From the IMG/VR virus record IMGVR_UViG_3300034375_004218, positions 1-28,166 of that record: 28,166 nt of DNA, one strand, 5' to 3'. The position numbers and the translations under genes are program-made. The notes beneath the pieces were generated by a model. The model ran no database searches and was not told the DNA's origin. It worked only from the letters and a program-made list of their open reading frames with translations. The stretch comes from a virus. Positions 1,049-8,097 of the stretch are shown one piece after another (positions within the stretch are counted from its first letter, which is position 1; the number at the start of each line of letters is the position of its first letter).

Positions 1049-2257
1049 TTATAGTGATATATGTAAGGTCTTGCCGATTGTGGGTCGGGCACTCTTGTTG
1101 TCTAGGATTCCCCACAGTAGAGGCATAGTCCAAGCACCCCAGTCACCACCTAGATAACCATCAGTCAGCACGATTATTGCCTGTGCGTTGATGTTGTTTT
1201 GTTGTATGTAGTCAGGCACACACTGCACCATCGTACCGCCGCCACCTGCGGGCTTGGTTGTTTGTGTAAGTTGTTCGAGAGAAGCCTTGGCACCTACCAC
1301 ATCACCGTACACCTCATCAGCACACACCTTGGTATCCCAGTACAGTATGCGTACGGATTCGGGCTTCACTGTATCGCAGACACCCTTGATCTCACTGAGA
1401 CACTTGGTTAACTCGTGCTGTCCAATACTTCCCGATGTATCGATTGCAATAACTAGCTCGCCCACTCGCTCGGTAATACCGCTTGGTCTGAGTATACCCA
1501 TTGCTAGGTGTCGTCTGCTTGGTTGCCTCCACGTGCTGTCGTCACTACCTCGACAAGTTTCTGTAATGAACTCACGCAACACCTCGCGCCAGTTAACCTC
1601 GGGTTGTAGCAGTTGGTCGATAGCTCGGTTGCCCCCACTACCTACCTTACCTGCGGTCAGCGCACCTTGGCGTATAGCTTGGTCAATCTCTTGTGCTAGC
1701 TCACGCTGTTCGTCTGCGCTCATCTCCTGCGCACCTTCCCAGTCGTGCTCGTCTAGCCCTGCACCGTTACCTTCACCCTCACCTTGGTCGCCATCGTCTG
1801 GGTTATCTTCCTGTTCTTGTTTCAGTATCTTGTAGACCTGCGCCGCACTCATGTTGGCAAATCGCTCATCGAGTAGTGCGCCCTTGGGTAAGACTGCAAA
1901 GCCATCGCGGTTCTCAAGATAGATAATCAGGTTGATTACATAGTCGCACGCCATGTTGGCTAGCTTAGGATTCTCCTTAAACATCCACGCCCACGTAATC
2001 AAGTGTCTCAACAGCTTGTGGTAGTTCTCATGTAGGATAAGCCCACGGAACTCAGGGTCAGTCAGGTCACCGACAAACGCACGTCCGTAGTATTCATCGC
2101 GTCCATTAGTGTAGGCAGTAGGGCAGTCGTCCTTGATAGCACTAATACCAATCATCATTACAGGTGCGAAAGCTATGTATCTCTCGTGCCCCATGATCGC
2201 TGTGATGTTTTTAGATAGCCGTTGCTCGGCTGTGAGTTGCGTGTTGATTGCTAGCAT
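1049..2257 (-). CDS. VWA-like protein with N-terminal putative metallopeptidase domain (DUF2201/CobT-like)
   Basis: The 402-aa protein has two recognisable parts. Near residues 76-80 is an HExxH motif (HENYHKLLRH), as in the putative zinc metallopeptidase domain that accompanies VWA-like DUF2201 proteins. An acidic, glycine-rich low-complexity linker follows at about 148-180. The C-terminal half is a von Willebrand factor A-like domain with a MIDAS metal-site signature DTSGSIG at residues 273-279 and a later LTDGYLGGDWG segment. Family members typically work with a MoxR/CobS-type AAA+ ATPase, and such a gene lies directly upstream, 12 bases away. GGGAG lies just before the ATG. The likely role is an adaptor or co-factor that delivers a target to the ATPase. 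Whether the HExxH site is catalytic cannot be told from sequence. The target is unknown, and cobalt chelation is not implied. Confidence 0.85.
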   Translation of the reverse strand: MLAINTQLTAEQRLSKNITAIMGHERYIAFAPVMMIGISAIKDDCPTAYTNGRDEYYGRAFVGDLTDPEFRGLILHENYHKLLRHLITWAWMFKENPKLANMACDYVINLIIYLENRDGFAVLPKGALLDERFANMSAAQVYKILKQEQEDNPDDGDQGEGEGNGAGLDEHDWEGAQEMSADEQRELAQEIDQAIRQGALTAGKVGSGGNRAIDQLLQPEVNWREVLREFITETCRGSDDSTWRQPSRRHLAMGILRPSGITERVGELVIAIDTSGSIGQHELTKCLSEIKGVCDTVKPESVRILYWDTKVCADEVYGDVVGAKASLEQLTQTTKPAGGGGTMVQCVPDYIQQNNINAQAIIVLTDGYLGGDWGAWTMPLLWGILDNKSARPTIGKTLHISL

Positions 2258-2269
2258 GATTTGTCTCCC

Positions 2270-3352
2270 TTACTTGTCAGCACTAAACATATAGTTGTTA
2301 GCCAAGCACCAGTCTTGGAAGCCCTTGTGCTGTACCACATAGTCGCGGCGACTATAGTTGGTAGCGCGTACACCGTTAACGAACAAGCCCTGTGCCTCCT
2401 TGGATAACCTGTTCATGTAAGTCAGCCACTCCCCTACCCACTTGCGCTCGATAGTTGCCAGTGCTCGATACACCACCATACACACAGCGGCAGGGCTGTC
2501 AGGCACAGGCGCACTCATCGGGTCGGTCTCTATCTGTTCGCGGGTTGGTAGCTTGTCAGCCAGTGCAATAAAGGCAGCTAGGTCTAGCGCAGCGCGGTCA
2601 CCAATCGTACCAATAAGGGCAGCGGTAAGCTGTGTGTCGTCTAGCAGCGGTCGCTGTTTCATTATGTGGCTCGCCTTCTCAAGTGAGCGTGGGGTAACGA
2701 AAGCGGCACGGGTGCTACGCGGGTGATATATGTAGGGGTTCTCGTCGGGGTTCTCGTACTGCTCGAAGCTGTGGAATAGCTCGGGGTGCTCTTTACAGAA
2801 ACCAAGTAGTGCAGGGTCAATATCGTTGTCGATACCCCACTCAATCCACTCCATGTTGTCTGGCTTGCGCATGGTCACTACGGTCAAGCGGTTACGGGCA
2901 TGTGCAGGTAACAGGTCGCCCACTCCCTCCGCACCCAAGTTAGTAGTGCTGAACACAATGCTGTCGGGGTGTAGCTCCATCTTCCCATGCTTGCGTTCCA
3001 GTTGCAGGCGTAGCGTAGCTAGCTGGGCAGACCTACTCATTTTGCCTAGCTCGTCGATCATCAGGATAACGGGACAGTCGGGGATGTGCAGTCCGAGGTC
3101 TTCCAGTGGTATGGTTCTGAACGTCTCGCCGTCTTCCGAATACTTCACCATGAACATATCAGCCGAGTCGATCAGCGTTGTGCCATCTAGGTAAACAGGT
3201 TTATGTGTGGGCAGGCGGGCAGCTAGTATGTAGAGCAGTGAGGTCTTGCCTGTGCCCATGTTGCCTTGTACCAGTGTAGAGTTGGTCTTACCGATTGCCT
3301 GAATGAGGTCGGCGGTCTGTTCGATAGATACTGCGTAAAGTGAGGTTTTCAT
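2270..3352 (-). CDS. MoxR/CobS-like AAA+ ATPase
   Basis: The 360-aa protein carries a Walker A loop GNMGTGKT at residues 30-37, Walker B ILMIDE ending at residue 101, and a sensor-1-like FSTTN at about 134-138. Sequence after about residue 170 fits the C-terminal helical part of AAA+ proteins. The compact size and the VWA partner just downstream point to the MoxR/CobS group, ATP-driven remodelling machines that form hexameric rings. It should act in the cytoplasm with the VWA protein and the DUF3150-like protein encoded upstream. The leader is notable: a candidate promoter at 3483-3454, the 18-bp palindrome at 3374-3391, and then AACGGAGCAACAAAGC-ATG, a leader shared with two distant small genes. 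Confidence 0.9.
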   Translation of the reverse strand: MKTSLYAVSIEQTADLIQAIGKTNSTLVQGNMGTGKTSLLYILAARLPTHKPVYLDGTTLIDSADMFMVKYSEDGETFRTIPLEDLGLHIPDCPVILMIDELGKMSRSAQLATLRLQLERKHGKMELHPDSIVFSTTNLGAEGVGDLLPAHARNRLTVVTMRKPDNMEWIEWGIDNDIDPALLGFCKEHPELFHSFEQYENPDENPYIYHPRSTRAAFVTPRSLEKASHIMKQRPLLDDTQLTAALIGTIGDRAALDLAAFIALADKLPTREQIETDPMSAPVPDSPAAVCMVVYRALATIERKWVGEWLTYMNRLSKEAQGLFVNGVRATNYSRRDYVVQHKGFQDWCLANNYMFSADK

Positions 3353-3373: not shown

Positions 3374-3391
3374 GTTATCTAATTAGATAAC
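3374..3391. repeat. Palindrome copy 1 (GTTATCTAATTAGATAAC)
   Basis: Perfect 18-bp palindrome, 21 bases upstream of the AAA+ ATPase start and about 55 bases downstream of its candidate transcription start. It is one of five copies in the left arm. It could be a dimeric repressor operator, or in RNA a 7-bp hairpin with an AAUU loop. Confidence 0.9.
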
Positions 3392-3453
3392 TTGGTTTGG
3401 GTTAGTGTTGCTTGTCGTGCGTTTCTATTCGGTCTTGCGTTGTTTCATTTATA

Positions 3454-3483
3454 ATTATCCACGGTTTGCCACCGCAGAGTCAA
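3454..3483 (-). promoter_or_regulatory. Candidate sigma70 promoter for the AAA+/VWA operon
   Basis: On the minus strand, TTGACT (3483-3478) and GATAAT (3459-3454) are separated by 18 bases. Each box matches the consensus at 5 of 6 positions. The promoter lies between the DUF3150-like gene and the AAA+ gene, so it can drive AAA+, VWA and the genes beyond independently. The first transcribed base would be near 3447, placing the palindrome inside the 5' leader. Confidence 0.55.
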
Positions 3484-3490
3484 GGTTTTG

Positions 3491-3512
3491 GGGGCTTGGG
3501 TAGCCAAGCCCC
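3491..3512 (-). other. Strong stem-loop after the DUF3150-like gene
   Basis: A perfect 9-bp stem (GGGGCTTGG with CCAAGCCCC) and a 4-base loop, 18 bases beyond the stop codon of the gene ending at 3530. On the minus strand it is followed by CAAAACC rather than a run of T, so it does not fit an intrinsic terminator. A role in mRNA 3'-end protection or factor-assisted termination is possible. Confidence 0.6.
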
Positions 3513-3529
3513 TACTACTTACCCACCTA

Positions 3530-4468
3530 CTAGAAGCCCAGCGATGGCAGGGAGTCGATTATAGAGTCCACATCACGCTTGGTTCTGGCTCGCATGTGCG
3601 GGTCTCTACGCAGCCCATCGGGCGTTACACCTGTCAGGGTTTGGCGTAGTTGTTTCTGTATGCCAGTGATTCGCGGGTCGTTACCCAAGTTACAGGTACG
3701 CATCAGGTCTACGATAGCCAGCACATTATCCACCAGCGTATCCCTGAATCCGGTAGGCTTCTCACCTTCGCCGTAGTCCAGCCCCTTACTCATACGTTGC
3801 AGCGGTTCCAGTAATCGCTCTGCCAAGTCTTGGCGCACGGCGCTAATCCGATCTTCCAAAACTTGTTTGTACTGTTCCTGCATCTCCGCAGCGGCTTGGT
3901 TACCAATGTCCACGCGGAAGTCCCCAACGTCCGGCACCGCTTCGAACACTAGCGAGAACTTAAACTTGCGCCGCAGTTGCTCCACCGATGGGTACTCATT
4001 CTCATTGAACATGTAACCCAGTCCCGTTTGTTGCAGTTGGGCTTGGGCTACCGCCTGTGGGTACTCGTCTAGGGTTCGTTGCGCTAAGTCCCAGAATTCA
4101 TCTTCTAGCTGTGCCATGTTGTTTTTGTAGTCGATTAGGGCTTGGTTCGATATTAGCCTGTCGCCCAGATCACCCCACGGGACGGTGCTATCTCTGTGGA
4201 ATGCCCGTATCTGCGCCACTAGCTTGGTAAGATCATCGTGCGCGTTAGACATAATTAGCTTTTTACTCACGTTCGCCGCACCCTTGCGGGCATTGTTTTG
4301 CGAAATCACTTGGCTAGTCGCCCGCTTATCCTGCTTGCGCATAGCTGGCATACTGATCGATAGCCCCACACGCAGCGCGCTTGATGAAATTGTAGGTACT
4401 ACCGGTGTCGGTAGGGGGGCTGTTTCTGGTGTTTCTGGTGTTGCTGTTAGTGCTATTTGATGGTTCAT
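3530..4468 (-). CDS. DUF3150-like protein of the AAA+/VWA cassette
   Basis: The 312-aa protein has a proline/threonine-rich N-terminus (residues 8-28), a mostly helical, charged middle (about 70-160), a conserved-looking patch near 160-195 (FNENEYPSVEQLRRKFKFSL, then VPDVGDFR) and a helical C-terminus. Overall it resembles the phage DUF3150 family, whose members are commonly found beside MoxR-like ATPases and VWA proteins. I assign it from pattern memory and gene order, not from a search. It is the first gene of the triad, and its start codon overlaps the stop of the preceding 57-aa gene (ATGA). AACGGAG precedes the start. No enzymatic motif was seen; a scaffold or target-recognition role in the complex is inferred. 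Confidence 0.65.
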   Translation of the reverse strand: MNHQIALTATPETPETAPLPTPVVPTISSSALRVGLSISMPAMRKQDKRATSQVISQNNARKGAANVSKKLIMSNAHDDLTKLVAQIRAFHRDSTVPWGDLGDRLISNQALIDYKNNMAQLEDEFWDLAQRTLDEYPQAVAQAQLQQTGLGYMFNENEYPSVEQLRRKFKFSLVFEAVPDVGDFRVDIGNQAAAEMQEQYKQVLEDRISAVRQDLAERLLEPLQRMSKGLDYGEGEKPTGFRDTLVDNVLAIVDLMRTCNLGNDPRITGIQKQLRQTLTGVTPDGLRRDPHMRARTKRDVDSIIDSLPSLGF

Positions 4469-4638
4469 GCTTGCTTCTCCGTTATGTCGTTAATGGTTCG
4501 GTCTATCAGGTCGTTTAGGGCCACGCTGTGTGGCAGGTTTTCGGTCGCGCCAAACAGGACATGCCTGTACATGCCGTCCGTTAAAAGTTTACCTTCGTCT
4601 ACCCAGTCGATGGTTTGCACGTCGTTTTCATCTTTCAT
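4465..4638 (-). CDS. Small acidic protein (57 aa)
   Basis: A short frame beginning MKDENDVQTIDWVDEGKLL and ending EKQA. It is supported by a clear Shine-Dalgarno (AGGAG, 7-8 bases before ATG) and by translational coupling: its TGA stop overlaps the ATG of the DUF3150-like gene by one base at each side (ATGA). No family is recognised. The protein is acidic and probably soluble. Its fixed position just before the AAA+/VWA cassette suggests co-expression with it. Confidence 0.75.
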   Translation of the reverse strand: MKDENDVQTIDWVDEGKLLTDGMYRHVLFGATENLPHSVALNDLIDRTINDITEKQA

Positions 4639-4662
4639 ACTTATCTCCTGTTTTGTTTCTGG

Positions 4663-4872
4663 TTAGTTTGTTTTTTGCTTTCTTTTTTCTGGTACTGCTT
4701 GGTCGCGCTCTGCCTGTTCTTGCTGCTCTAGCCACAGGCGCAGCAAATGGGGGTCATACTCCATTGCCAGCTCTTCCAGCAGGTCGCGCAGCTCCACACG
4801 CTCGGGGTGTGCCTCTCGCGGGTTCTCGTCTATCAGCACCGCGCTTTCTTCGCTCCACTTTTTATCTACCAT
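4663..4872 (-). CDS. Small charged helical protein (69 aa)
   Basis: Sequence MVDKKWSEESAVLIDENPRE followed by a helical, leucine- and glutamate-rich half and a basic tail (PEKRKQKTN). AAGGAGG lies 8 bases before the ATG, inside the end of the upstream 59-aa gene, which it overlaps by 11 bases. This is the tight packing typical of phage early operons. No family recognised and no metal or membrane motif seen. Confidence 0.75.
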   Translation of the reverse strand: MVDKKWSEESAVLIDENPREAHPERVELRDLLEELAMEYDPHLLRLWLEQQEQAERDQAVPEKRKQKTN

Positions 4873-5041
4873 CGGTCGCCCTCCTTACGGCGTCGTTAGC
4901 GTCGCGGGCTTTGCCCACCCACTGTAGTTCCCACGGAACCGGATGAAACCCACACGTACCCAGCGTACCAGCGGGTCGCACGTACCATTGCCCGCGTAGG
5001 CATACTGCTTCTAGTTTCTTAACTTTGTTTGTCCAGCTCAT
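4862..5041 (-). CDS. Small basic tryptophan-rich protein (59 aa)
   Basis: A frame starting MSWTNKVKKLEAVCLRGQWY, 59 residues, with four tryptophans and a basic net charge. It is short but has a good Shine-Dalgarno (AAGGAG, 8 bases before ATG). It fills the gap between its neighbours, overlapping the next gene by 11 bases and starting 12 bases after the previous one. Function unknown. Confidence 0.7.
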   Translation of the reverse strand: MSWTNKVKKLEAVCLRGQWYVRPAGTLGTCGFHPVPWELQWVGKARDANDAVRRATDGR

Positions 5042-5053
5042 TCTAGGTTCTCC

Positions 5054-5266
5054 TTACAGAACAAACACAAGTGTTGTTATTACCCAGAACAGGGTAAACA
5101 TACTCACCGCTCCGGCCACCACGCCCAGCACTTGCAGGGTCTTGAGCCACACTGGCTCAGCATCGGCCCACACGTACTGGTTATGGGGGTCGTGGATGTT
5201 ACGGGTTCTTGGGTCGCCCGCGTTGGTGCGGTAGCACTCGCCTACTGCCCAATTACTTTTCTTCAT
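5054..5266 (-). CDS. Small single-pass membrane protein (70 aa)
   Basis: The start at 5266 (MKKSNWAVGECYRTNAGDPR) is chosen because GGAGG lies 6 bases upstream; the open frame extends ten codons further but lacks such a site. The C-terminal third (TLQVLGVVAGAVSMFTLFW and on to the end) is one long hydrophobic helix, so a C-terminal membrane anchor with the N-terminal part in the cytoplasm is likely. It overlaps the upstream gene by 14 bases. A phage-encoded inner-membrane protein could affect lysis, exclusion or host physiology; nothing here decides which. Confidence 0.75.
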   Translation of the reverse strand: MKKSNWAVGECYRTNAGDPRTRNIHDPHNQYVWADAEPVWLKTLQVLGVVAGAVSMFTLFWVITTLVFVL

Positions 5267-5483
5267 CGTTGGCCTCCATATTGATCCAGTAGTCACGCGC
5301 CACGTTCCCCACTACTTCCCCCCGCTTCATTAACTCCACAGCGTGCAAGGCTTCGTGCTTCGCCGCTGCCGCTAGAAGTTTGAAAAACTTAAACCTACGG
5401 AGCGGGTCTTCAATATCCGCAGACTTCTTGTTGATAAAGTCCTCTATCTGTCGCTCCCAAGGTTTCTTCACTTCTTTAGTCAT
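5253..5483 (-). CDS. Hypothetical protein (76 aa)
   Basis: Begins MTKEVKKPWERQIEDFINKK. It is helical and charged, with an alanine-rich centre (LLAAAAKHEALHAVELM). The ATG follows AAGGGG by 8 bases, and the upstream gene's stop is 5 bases away. No family recognised. It belongs to the run of small co-transcribed genes. Confidence 0.75.
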   Translation of the reverse strand: MTKEVKKPWERQIEDFINKKSADIEDPLRRFKFFKLLAAAAKHEALHAVELMKRGEVVGNVARDYWINMEANDEEK

Positions 5484-5488
5484 TGTTG

Positions 5489-5905
5489 TTACCCCTTCAT
5501 GTAGTGGGCTGGGCTTTCGTATGGGTTGCTGGCTCTAACTACTTCGCCACGCTTGCGCATACGGTCAAGTTCCAGACTCACCGCTTTCCGGTTCCGCTTC
5601 GTGCAGTACAGGTTCAGTTTGCGGCATATCTTGTTCACGGTGAACAGGGTATCGGTCGGGAGTTGAGCCACCGCCACGCGGGTTTTGGCCGCGATGCTTT
5701 CATCTTTCGGCCCCACATGGCCCGTACGCCGCTTTTTGGTTTTGGTTTTTGCCGTTGTTTTTGCCGTTGTTTTTGCCGTTGGCTTTGCTGGGGGTGCGGT
5801 TGGGGTTGCTGTTTCTGCCGTTGGTTTTGGTGCGTCCCCCAGTAACAGGTTTATCGCGTCCAGCTTGGCTTCCAGTTCTTTTTTCATGGTTAATAGGTCT
5901 TTCAT
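5489..5905 (-). CDS. Putative DNA-binding protein with coiled N-terminus, Lys/Thr/Ala linker and winged-helix-like C-terminus
   Basis: The 138-aa protein has three visible parts. Residues 1-25 form a short amphipathic helix (LLTMKKELEAKLDAINLLLG). Residues 26-60 are a linker of A/K/T/P with AKTT repeats, ending in a basic cluster (KTKTKKRR). Residues 75-130 look like a helix-turn-helix/winged-helix unit, with FTVNKICRKLNLY then a helix AVSLELDRMRKRGEVVRAS typical of a recognition helix followed by a wing. Dimerising helix, flexible linker and DNA-binding domain is the layout of small nucleoid-type or regulatory proteins. AAAGGAG lies 8 bases before this ATG, which favours it over a nearby ATG in another frame at 5912. 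Regulator identity is inferred. Confidence 0.75.
   Translation of the reverse strand: MKDLLTMKKELEAKLDAINLLLGDAPKPTAETATPTAPPAKPTAKTTAKTTAKTKTKKRRTGHVGPKDESIAAKTRVAVAQLPTDTLFTVNKICRKLNLYCTKRNRKAVSLELDRMRKRGEVVRASNPYESPAHYMKG
5746..5781. repeat. Three perfect 12-bp tandem repeats (TTTTTGCCGTTG)
   Basis: Three exact, adjacent copies of TTTTTGCCGTTG, coding on the minus strand for the AKTT repeats of the linker in the 138-aa protein. A unit of 12 bases keeps the frame, so copy-number change would alter only linker length. Confidence 0.95.
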
Positions 5906-5924
5906 CTTTCATTCTCCTTTGGCG

Positions 5925-6155
5925 TTATTGCCGTTTTGGGTTGGTTTGCTTGAGTGTAGCAAAGTTTGTTACTACTTGATAAGGGCCTTTCGAGTACTCC
6001 TGCACAATAGTGTGCTTTGTTTTTCTAGCTAGTGCATCTCCGCATTGCATACAGGTTTGGTAGCCTAGCGCAGCGCGACGCGAATCAAACAAGACGTCGC
6101 ACTCGGGGTTGGCGCATGGGTATTCTGTGAGCAGTTCGCTTTTTACTTTGCCCAT
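5925..6155 (-). CDS. Small zinc-finger-like protein (76 aa)
   Basis: Contains CANPEC and, 20 residues later, CMQC, a Cys4 arrangement (C-x4-C ... C-x2-C) suited to binding one zinc ion. The C-terminal half (EYSKGPYQVVTNFATLKQTN) has no cysteine. GGAGG lies 10 bases before the ATG, within the end of the gene upstream, only two bases away. Small zinc ribbons in phage early regions usually bind nucleic acid or modulate host transcription; here that is inference. Confidence 0.78.
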   Translation of the reverse strand: MGKVKSELLTEYPCANPECDVLFDSRRAALGYQTCMQCGDALARKTKHTIVQEYSKGPYQVVTNFATLKQTNPKRQ

Positions 6156-6157
6156 GG

Positions 6158-6358
6158 CTATTCAACCTCCGCGTCAGTTACGTGGTAGCCGTAGTTCTCT
6201 GCCCAGCTCTTTTGCGCACGGGTCATACCCTTCCAGTTCTCAACCCAGTAACCACGGTGTGGGTGATTGTGGGCCGGTGTTACAGGCGTACCTTTTGGGA
6301 TAGTAGCTAGTGCACCATACGGCATGCTGTTGTAAACGATCTTGTGTTTGGTTTTCAT
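6158..6358 (-). CDS. Hypothetical protein (66 aa) with the shared palindrome leader
   Basis: Sequence MKTKHKIVYNSMPYGALATI followed by a His/Pro/Trp-containing middle (HNHPHRGYWVENWKG). No family recognised. Its upstream region is the notable feature: palindrome copy 2 (6392-6409), a 33-base spacer, and AACGGAGCAACAAAGC-ATG, the same leader as the AAA+ ATPase gene and the 99-aa gene. It is followed almost directly by the zinc-finger gene. Confidence 0.78.
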   Translation of the reverse strand: MKTKHKIVYNSMPYGALATIPKGTPVTPAHNHPHRGYWVENWKGMTRAQKSWAENYGYHVTDAEVE

Positions 6359-6391
6359 GCTTTGTTGCTCCGTTATTGTTGGGTTTGATTT

Positions 6392-6409
6392 GTTATCTAA
6401 TTAGATAAC
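6392..6409. repeat. Palindrome copy 2 (GTTATCTAATTAGATAAC)
   Basis: Perfect copy located 33 bases upstream of the 66-aa gene. It supplies the last two codons and the TAA stop of the upstream 99-aa gene (GTT ATC TAA), so it overlaps coding sequence. Confidence 0.9.
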
Positions 6410-6700
6410 TTGTCCGTCTATGCAGGCTTGGTAGTTCTTAATCGACGCGTTTACACCCAGTGCACGCAGTCGGCTTCGGGTTGTTGTAGTTGGCCAGTTG
6501 CGGAAGGTTTCACGGTTCGGGTTGGCGTATGGGTATCTATCCCACGTCCTTGGTGTTGCTGTGGCTATGTGGTTACCGTGCAGGTAAATGTTTGCGTAGA
6601 AGACGCCGTTGTCGATTGAGTGCAGCACCTCGGTGTTACCGCTTTTCCAGTTGTCGCCTGAGCGGATGGCTTTGATCATTTGTTGTTCAATTTTTCTCAT
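6401..6700 (-). CDS. Hypothetical protein (99 aa) with the shared palindrome leader
   Basis: Begins MRKIEQQMIKAIRSGDNWKS and contains the pattern NTEVLHSIDNGVFYANIYLHG followed by basic residues, compatible with a small mixed alpha/beta protein. I have a weak impression that similar proteins (a helix, then a 'GN..V......V.L.GN.IA' strand pair) are widespread in phages, but no function is known to me. A candidate promoter at 6834-6805 and palindrome copy 3 (6734-6751) lie upstream, and AACGGAGCAACAAAGC precedes the ATG. It is the first gene of the leftward small-gene operon after the AT-rich region. Confidence 0.8.
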   Translation of the reverse strand: MRKIEQQMIKAIRSGDNWKSGNTEVLHSIDNGVFYANIYLHGNHIATATPRTWDRYPYANPNRETFRNWPTTTTRSRLRALGVNASIKNYQACIDGQVI

Positions 6701-6733
6701 GCTTTGTTGCTCCGTTATTGCTTAGTTTGGTTT

Positions 6734-6751
6734 GTTATCTAATTAGATAAC
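6734..6751. repeat. Palindrome copy 3 (GTTATCTAATTAGATAAC)
   Basis: Perfect copy 33 bases upstream of the 99-aa gene, about 47 bases downstream of its candidate transcription start. Confidence 0.9.
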
Positions 6752-6804
6752 TTTTTCTGTGTTGGTGCGGTGATGTTTCGTGCATAGTTCCGACCAACAA
6801 AACC

Positions 6805-6834
6805 ATGATATGCCTAGTTTGACCTAAAAGTCAA
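6805..6834 (-). promoter_or_regulatory. Candidate sigma70 promoter for the small-gene operon
   Basis: On the minus strand, TTGACT (6834-6829) and TATCAT (6810-6805) are separated by 18 bases. The -35 box and its flank (CCTTGACT) are identical to those of the candidate promoter at 3483, and both sit at a similar distance before a palindrome copy. Confidence 0.5.
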
Positions 6835-6869
6835 GGTTCTGGAACATGTTTATTTTAAGTTGGGGTATT

Positions 6870-6883
6870 GTTACTAACGTAAC
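6870..6883. repeat. Iteron variant (GTTACTAACGTAAC)
   Basis: A one-base variant of the GTTACCAACGTAAC element, at the left side of the iteron cluster. Confidence 0.7.
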
Positions 6884-6953
6884 TTTTTGGTTTTGAAAAA
6901 AGTAACAATATAAAAAATCTGAAACGCAGTAACCACGCGGCCTGTAGAGAAAC

Positions 6954-6976
6954 GTTACCAACGTAACCAATGTAAC
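6954..6976. repeat. Left arm of a 23-bp perfect inverted repeat (iteron)
   Basis: Begins GTTACCAACGTAAC and continues with CAATGTAAC. The whole 23 bases are the exact reverse complement of 7224-7246, with about 250 bp between the arms. It contains two overlapping GTAACCAA-type units. Confidence 0.9.
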
Positions 6977-6989
6977 CAATGAAATGGAC

Positions 6990-7018
6990 ACCCCCGACTT
7001 TTTTCGCAAAAAGGGGGT
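6990..7018. other. Bulged stem-loop
   Basis: ACCCCC pairs with GGGGGT and TTTTT with AAAAA around a CGC loop, with a 4-base bulge on the 5' side. It lies inside the iteron region, between the left inverted-repeat arm and the central iterons. Role unknown. Confidence 0.5.
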
Positions 7019-7077
7019 CGAGGTCGGAGAAGTATCTCCCCATAGCGTAGCGGAAAAAATGGTAAGCAAAATCCTTG

Positions 7078-7100
7078 GTTACGTTGGTAACGTTGGTAAC
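7078..7100. repeat. Central iterons (GTTACGTTGGTAAC plus overlapping GTTGGTAAC)
   Basis: One full GTTACGTTGGTAAC at 7078-7091 overlapped by another ending at 7100, so the unit GTTGGTAAC occurs twice in tandem. It lies directly beside the AT-rich stretch that starts at 7101. Confidence 0.9.
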
Positions 7101-7180
7101 GAAATAAAATAAAAAAATAAAATATATATATATATAAATAATAATAAATAATACTAAGTAAAACTAAAATCATAAACCCA
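7101..7180. other. AT-rich stretch with TA run, possible DNA-unwinding element
   Basis: About 80 bases almost free of G and C, including an alternating TA run at about 7122-7135, bounded by iterons at 7078-7100 and 7224-7246. In replication origins such a stretch next to initiator-binding repeats is where strands open. Inference from position and composition. Confidence 0.5.
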
Positions 7181-7223
7181 AAAAACCGGCTTTCTATTGT
7201 TACTTTTTTGCGATTCCCAAAAA

Positions 7224-7246
7224 GTTACATTGGTTACGTTGGTAAC
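7224..7246. repeat. Right arm of the 23-bp perfect inverted repeat (iteron)
   Basis: Exact reverse complement of 6954-6976; it ends with GTTACGTTGGTAAC at 7233-7246. Confidence 0.9.
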
Positions 7247-7276
7247 AATACCACGAAGTAAACGGGGGCCTAAAAA

Positions 7277-7294
7277 GTTATCTAATTAGATAAC
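7277..7294. repeat. Palindrome copy 4 (GTTATCTAATTAGATAAC), flanks in the opposite direction
   Basis: Perfect copy. Its flanking bases (AAAAAG on the left, CAAATC on the right) read on the plus strand as those of the other copies read on the minus strand, so this copy faces the other way. No gene follows closely on the plus strand. Confidence 0.9.
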
Positions 7295-7307
7295 AAATCA
7301 GGCTCGT

Positions 7308-7379
7308 GCGGCTCGCCGTGAGGGAACTGGTATCAGCAGCGCGCCGCTAGTGCAGCCCGCCATGAGAGAACTGGTATCA
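7308..7379. repeat. Two 28-bp direct repeats, period 44 bp
   Basis: 7308-7335 and 7352-7379 match at 24 of 28 positions and share the exact core GAACTGGTATCA. They lie between palindrome copy 4 and the terminator of the 175-aa gene. Function unknown; a protein-binding pair near the putative origin is possible. Confidence 0.85.
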
Positions 7380-7387
7380 AAGGGCAC

Positions 7388-7411
7388 AAAAAAGGGGGCC
7401 TCTCGGCCCCC
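7388..7411 (-). terminator. Intrinsic terminator of the 175-aa gene
   Basis: On the minus strand: GGGGGCC, loop GAGA, GGCCCCC, then six T. A perfect 7-bp GC stem with a U-tract, 7 bases beyond the stop codon of the gene at 7418-7945. It separates that gene from the putative origin region. Confidence 0.92.
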
Positions 7412-7417
7412 TCGTGG

Positions 7418-7945
7418 TTACTTCTTGTTAGCTAGCGTCTTGAGCGCCGCGTTGATGTGCTTGTTGAAGGTGACCACATCGAATTTCGGTTCCTTCATTT
7501 TCTGGGCCTTCTTGGCTATCGCCGCGAGGCGCTCGAAGATTTTTGCTTCCTCCGTCGTCGGAGTCTGTGCCCCGTTGCCTTCGTCGCGGTGTAGTGCTGC
7601 CTTCATCGCATTGCGTATGTTGCCTACCTCGCGGCCCTTATTGCGGCCCCACTTAGACTTGAGGGCCTTCTCTGCTTCGCTCAGCTCCTTCGCTGGGATA
7701 CGGAGCACCCTTTGCGCCTCGGCGGGAAATCCCTTCACTACGTAGTTGAGCAGTGATTCGTAGAAGGTGCGATCTTCGCCCTTGGCCGGGGCGCGGTATG
7801 CCGCTAGATCGGTGTGGCCGTCTGCTATCAAGGCATCACATACGGCGGTCAATTTGCCGTATCCGCTGACACTGTGATTAACAAGAGCGGTAATAGTCGC
7901 GCCGGTAGTCTTGCTGATTTTCTTGGTCATAGAAATAGTAGTCAT
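7418..7945 (-). CDS. Uncharacterised 175-aa basic protein, single-gene transcription unit
   Basis: Begins MTTISMTKKISKTTGATITA. The body is lysine- and alanine-rich and helical (KELSEAEKALKSKWGRNKGR; EAKIFERLAAIAKKAQKMKE), suggesting a nucleic-acid-binding protein, though no named domain is recognised. The first ATG (7945) is chosen because GGAG lies 8 bases upstream; a second ATG five codons in lacks its own site. It has a candidate promoter upstream (8042-8014) and a strong terminator directly downstream, so it is transcribed alone. A stand-alone gene at the head of the early arm, next to the putative origin, would suit an early regulator or replication protein, but this is inference. Confidence 0.82.
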   Translation of the reverse strand: MTTISMTKKISKTTGATITALVNHSVSGYGKLTAVCDALIADGHTDLAAYRAPAKGEDRTFYESLLNYVVKGFPAEAQRVLRIPAKELSEAEKALKSKWGRNKGREVGNIRNAMKAALHRDEGNGAQTPTTEEAKIFERLAAIAKKAQKMKEPKFDVVTFNKHINAALKTLANKK

Positions 7946-8013
7946 GCTAATTACTCCAAAAAGTAGTTATGTCATCCCGCGAAGGCGGTAGTGCCGTTGC
8001 GTTGACGGTTTTT

Positions 8014-8042
8014 AAAGTAGCAAAACAAGTTTCAGTAGTCAA
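8014..8042 (-). promoter_or_regulatory. Candidate promoter for the 175-aa gene
   Basis: On the minus strand, TTGACT (8042-8037), 17 bases, then TACTTT (8019-8014). The -35 box is good and the -10 box weak, though TG precedes it as in an extended -10 (TGC-TACTTT). A directly repeated AGTAGTC at 8034-8048 overlaps the -35 region and could be an operator. Confidence 0.4.
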
Positions 8043-8080
8043 GTAGTCTTGTAAGTGACTGATTTATATCGGGAATTTTC

Positions 8081-8097
8081 TTATCTAATTAGATAAC
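8081..8097. repeat. Palindrome copy 5 (TTATCTAATTAGATAA core)
   Basis: The 16-bp core is perfect, but the outermost base on the left is C instead of G. It lies 39 bases upstream of the -35 box of the candidate leftward promoter. Confidence 0.85.

Follow-up and report, generated by a model that had tools for sequence, protein, structure and literature searches.

The leftward early region of an uncultivated marine phage, represented by the IMG/VR record IMGVR_UViG_3300034375_004218, carries five copies of an 18-bp palindrome. The window analysed is the entire record, 28,166 bp long. The palindromes are probably operators of the phage's own 175-residue regulator, encoded on the minus strand at 7418-7945 and likely to act by blocking early transcription. 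The chief evidence for this regulator-operator reading comes from sequence comparison, in which the class of the palindrome is linked to the family of the regulator, with repeated switches from one class to the other. This wider pattern, where the operators of a phage regulon are exchanged as a set together with a regulator of no recognised type, is of more interest than the palindromes alone.

A pattern search of the window located the exact palindrome, GTTATCTAATTAGATAAC (in the form GTTATCT-AATT-AGATAAC), at 3374-3391, 6392-6409, 6734-6751 and 7277-7294, and a fifth copy with one outer base changed, CTTATCTAATTAGATAAC, at 8080-8097. No further match was found at up to three mismatches, the right arm included, and 100 dinucleotide shuffles gave none by chance. 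The initial annotation, made from the letters alone, had described five palindromes limited to the left arm, the last with one altered outer base. This is borne out, as are its first four coordinates; the last copy starts at 8080 and not at 8081. Three copies precede gene starts by 21 to 33 bases, as it had also said. The copy at 3374 lies in the leader of the AAA ATPase gene (2270-3352), 21 bp before the start, at a position where relatives have a different palindrome. That at 6734 lies 33 bp before an early gene encoding a Kyano_Gp96-like protein (PF23790; 6401-6700), and that at 6392 lies between this gene and an early gene of unknown function (6158-6358), overlapping the stop codon of the former and 33 bp before the start of the latter; all three genes are on the minus strand. 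The copy at 7277 lies in non-coding sequence, with the regulator gene on one side and the early operon on the other, and its flanks run opposite to those of the other copies. The copy at 8080 is situated between divergent gene blocks, 37 bp upstream of the regulator's own sigma-70-like promoter (TTGACT-17-TACTTT, 8014-8042, minus strand). Beside the copy at 7277, two direct 34-nt repeats, 85% alike and 44 bp apart, occupy 7302-7379; they stand before the probable intrinsic terminator of the regulator gene, read in the sequence as GGGGGCCgagaGGCCCCC followed by a T run (7388-7411, leftward on the minus strand).

Elsewhere in IMG/VR, the exact 18-mer is present on a single contig of 6,080 bp, which differs from the window by one base. 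A search of the same database with the AAA ATPase returned 60 related loci. In nearly all of those with upstream sequence, the ribosome-binding site of the ATPase gene is immediately preceded by an inverted repeat, perfect or nearly so, whose sequence differs from the window's. Aquatic relatives that share the ATPase gene or the gene for the 175-residue protein carry dyads of 16-20 bp in the same early region, in 3-11 copies. Each phage repeats its own version over this region; where the available sequence is long enough, 3-9 copies are usual, and the maximum is 11. At least two copies of one inverted repeat with 7-nt arms occur in 109 of 150 related loci versus none of 150 randomised loci, and the sites are mostly intact (447 perfect copies versus 37 with one or two mismatches). 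In records of 59-66 kb the copies are grouped in one segment: all eight lie within 32.0-42.6 kb in a 62.4-kb record, and nine lie within 53.7-65.8 kb in a record of 65.9 kb. Conservation in relatives had been suggested as a check on the regulatory reading; the positions and the dyad form are kept, but the sequence changes, and does so simultaneously in every copy of a genome. In some phages with GTTAGTG arms (the related loci L037, L039, L044, L120 and others), chimeric copies pair GTTAGTG with CCCTAAC, which is the GTTAGGG group's half-site.

The dyads can be assigned to two classes. In class one the arms start with GTTA and the centre is 3 or 4 bp (GTTATCT, GTTATGG, GTTATCG, GTTATAG, GTTATGC, GTTAGTG, GTTAGTC, GTTAGGG; the class-one arm of L018 is TTATCGC with the preceding G). 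In class two, most members share an inner CA-nn-TG and the outer bases vary, as in GCGGACA-nn-TGTCCGC; the arms are GCGGACA, GCAGACA, GTGGACA, GCCAACA, TACGTACA, GTCCTCA, GCCATCA and TGACAACA. The palindrome of L021 is GTTATGGAATTCCATAAC. According to gene clustering, the early region opens with a gene, oriented divergently from that of the small terminase, that belongs to cluster c10 (homologues of the 175-residue protein) in class one and to an unrelated cluster, c38, in class two. In the group whose ATPases are close, c10 is found in five of five GTTA loci and in none of six others, and c38 shows the reverse; in seven truncated close relatives (L006, L007, L009, L011, L014, L015 and L023) the regulator gene falls outside the available sequence. 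Altogether, 105 c10 relatives were found encoded, 80 of which were kept, and c38 is present in 13 loci. In L031 and L060, c10 was at first missed and then detected by a profile search. The class-two palindrome stands directly before the c38 start in 13 of 13 loci, in a few with a mismatch. Upstream of it, the c38 leader (for example L016:5540-5610) also contains a well conserved stretch, TTTAATAGCNCCATCGTTTC, and a GCGCACTTTCGCGC hairpin.

On the tree of the AAA ATPases, the class label needs five changes, at least four of which are forced by well-supported branches, and wherever the regulator is visible at such a change, its family changes as well. L018 (c10) and L019 (c38) are tree neighbours whose DNA is about 94% identical across several kilobases that take in the ATPase gene, and they differ in both regulator and palindrome; L022 (c10) and L016 (c38) are another such pair of neighbours, about 89% identical over the ATPase block. 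Alignment of the ATPase leaders shows that the promoter and a GGAGCAACA-type ribosome-binding site are conserved and that the palindrome between them is replaced. In L018 and L019 themselves the palindrome segment is cleanly missing from this leader (L018:9870-9997, L019:3424-3551), with a near-perfect promoter, TTGACT and TATAAT, kept.

Many sites follow a promoter. A sigma-70-like promoter scoring at least 11 accompanies 49 of 320 sites, compared to 11 of 320 control positions, and its -10 element is mostly 40-69 bp before the palindrome. In the window this order is seen twice on the minus strand, with TTGACT-18-GATAAT (3454-3483) 62 bp upstream of the copy at 3374 and TTGACT-18-TATCAT (6805-6834) 53 bp upstream of that at 6734. 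We infer direct binding, dimer formation, repression rather than activation, and timing, as follows. A homodimer of the c10 protein, the product of the gene that opens the leftward early region, would bind the palindromes as double-stranded DNA operators. Host RNA polymerase would initiate at the strong sigma-70-like promoters and, about 40-60 bp further on, would meet the regulator bound just before the ribosome-binding site, where transcription of individual early genes would be blocked or slowed in an operator/stoperator-like manner. The copy upstream of the regulator's promoter would adjust the level of the regulator and could affect the divergent late block. That the palindrome is the binding site of a phage regulator, as the initial annotation had proposed, is the reading best supported by the repetition of the sites, their concerted divergence and the linkage of class to regulator.

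The predicted 175-residue structure is all-helical, with a mean pLDDT (predicted local distance difference test) of 87, and its long helix 90-123 carries the best conserved stretch of the family, KRYWQQQIGARRNDF in many relatives. Among viral proteins, fold searches gave just one match of high probability, to a phage protein that is uncharacterised, and its E-value is weak. The c38 model is weaker (mean pLDDT 71.5). Profile comparison indicates that c10 and c38 are unrelated overall. Their C-terminal tails are similar in pairwise comparisons with the c10 members L010/L022 (E 2e-5 and 5e-5), which hints, as a lead only, at an N-terminal part exchanged on a common tail. Of the two binders put forward in the annotation, the 175-residue protein fits, tracking the palindrome class through the family; the winged-helix-like protein of 138 residues (5489-5905) was dropped, having no homologue in the related loci compared.

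Several observations weigh against the assignment of the palindromes to c10 and c38 as operators. Arm divergence within c10 follows ATPase relatedness at least equally well (partial Mantel test of c10 given AAA, r = 0.13, p = 0.16); thus there is no independent signal within c10, and fine-scale covariation of regulator and arm is not demonstrated. A cluster of small genes, c35, has the same pattern of presence in the close group and is a minor alternative there, though it is found in seven loci only. The c10 family, with 42 aligned homologues, has no convincing match in Pfam; searches of solved structures gave no confident fold match for the 175-residue protein and none for c38. By a crude test, only 126 of 321 sites are followed within 75 bp by a clear start codon, with a peak at 15-24 bp, compared to 17% and no peak for random positions. 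Finally, the flanks are asymmetric: at sites with a 3-bp centre, the palindrome is followed by A in 93% and preceded by T in 64%.

An alternative already raised by the initial annotation is that the palindromes work as RNA hairpins in mRNA leaders, with a stem of 7-8 bp and a loop of 3-4 nt. They would be bound by the 175-residue protein or by a factor related to ribosomes or RNases, and would act on translation or stability. The leader positions are compatible with this, since many sites lie between promoter and ribosome-binding site and the distances to the start codon peak as described above; in the GTTAGTG group, moreover, the central 3 nt are nearly free, as in a loop. The c10 gene is an exception to this arrangement. 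There the palindrome begins some 85-170 bp upstream of the start codon, and a good c10 promoter, in those cases where one was found, usually lies between palindrome and gene (in the window and most such relatives). The occurrence of the palindrome on different sides of the promoter is easier to reconcile with a DNA operator than with an RNA element. The copy at 7277 is, in addition, not close to a start. Mispairs in imperfect copies are T-C or G-A in 29 of 42 cases and G-U in only 5 of 42 (counts that are non-independent, the phages being related), a further point against an RNA stem. In several even-centred classes the palindrome continues through the centre (AATT, AGCT, CTAG), a symmetry not required of a loop, and the stem sequence is constant within a genome, as an element acting by structure alone would not have to be. 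RNA hairpins are an unlikely explanation.

Alternatively, the regulator might bind the same sites as an activator, or in an early-to-late switch by activation or antitermination, and not as a block. The copy at its own promoter has its centre some 80 bp upstream of the likely start site, a distance compatible with activation, and the flank asymmetry runs along the gene direction. Many copies, however, are downstream of near-consensus promoters, which should not need an activator, and L018 and L019 keep the ATPase promoter without the site, so that we regard activation as quite improbable. An equally doubtful proposal is that the sites are those of a different phage protein or of a host factor, c10 and c38 merely lying in the same exchanged segment. 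The distribution of c35 and the dependence of c10 arm divergence on that of the ATPase would suit it, but c35 is restricted to its seven loci whereas c10 occurs throughout the GTTA classes, L031 and L060 included, and a host factor would hardly account for different sites in near-identical phages, unless their hosts differ. Palindromic repeats of a mobile or REP-like kind, spreading with no part in regulation, would explain several near-identical copies per genome but are highly improbable given that the copies are restricted to the early region and occupy comparable positions in gene leaders in all phages, where one sequence is exchanged for another.

The phages are likely lytic. No tyrosine integrase was found in nine records (seven of them of 59-66 kb) with a positive control that worked; serine integrases and plasmid-type lysogeny were not searched. 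No relative of the ATPase or c10 protein was found in 84,980 cellular genomes, and the L040 member of c10 has none among phage isolates, to which the window has no direct DNA similarity either. The isolates nearest by terminase (about 45% identity) are Pelagibacter phages and others; among them, the Pelagibacter phages HTVC027P and HTVC023P, as well as 023Pt_psg01 and DSL-LC04, contain no repeated palindrome in the first 50 kb.

Among known systems, the operator/stoperator control of Cluster A mycobacteriophages is the closest analogue. In phages such as L5 and Bxb1, many copies of one short site are located in promoters and short intergenic spaces and near the regulator's own gene, and from phage to phage the site sequence changes along with the repressor (PMC6550527, PMC9283540). 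The likeness lies in one short site present in several copies, mostly intergenic in transcribed regions. It would not amount to membership, judging from the asymmetric 13-bp sites there and the mostly perfect 16-20 bp dyads here, and from a repressor with a helix-turn-helix and a stoperator domain, binding as a monomer, there and regulators with no recognised domain here. Cluster A phages are also temperate, with 20-30 copies, as opposed to 3-11 copies and no detected integrase, and the exchange of unrelated regulator families sets the present phages apart from them. In phage phiC31, a single repressor acts on multiple conserved inverted repeats in intergenic spaces of the early region, a likeness drawn from its general description and not at the sequence level; we know of no case there of a whole operator set replaced by another class. 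The hairpin promoters of N4-type virion RNA polymerases are short inverted repeats with a 3-nt centre before early genes, and the N4 gp24 type is a distant relative of the AAA ATPase. Here, in contrast, many sites have sigma-70-like promoters upstream, and the centre shows no conservation. The nine records gave no match to single-subunit RNA polymerase (PF00940), though the controls of that search were silent too.

No description of this palindrome-regulator system was found in the literature. We tentatively suggest that this probably lytic phage group uses two unrelated families of DNA-binding regulators of no recognised type, which replace each other at one locus while the 3-11 operators are exchanged in place each time, perhaps driven by escape from cross-repression by co-infecting relatives. 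How a regulator and its scattered sites can change specificity together without a non-functional intermediate is an open question in the field, for which these phages offer a natural series: over ten versions of the operator and the regulators linked to them, with some near-identical genome pairs of different class. If binding is confirmed, they would also provide two families of DNA-binding proteins that lack recognised domains, as well as orthogonal pairs of operator and regulator, and would raise the question of why apparently lytic phages diversify operators, a property usually attributed to lysogenic immunity.

Other features of the window deserve mention. Between the regulator and the early operon, 9-bp GTTAC/GTAAC repeats (AACGTAACC / TTGGTAACG) are inverted around an A+T-rich stretch (6951-7247), a region that is possibly a replication origin. 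The ATPase gene, which served as the anchor for the comparison of relatives, is followed on the minus strand by a gene encoding a VWA/DUF2201 protein (1049-2257), with a palindrome in front in some relatives (L010, L022, L033). In this pair (1049-3352) the ATPase is distantly N4 gp24-like, at about 24-26% identity, the phages otherwise bearing no apparent likeness to N4. A 76-residue protein with CxxC pairs, encoded at 5925-6155, weakly matches DksA-like zinc fingers and, in the close group, occurs only alongside c10.

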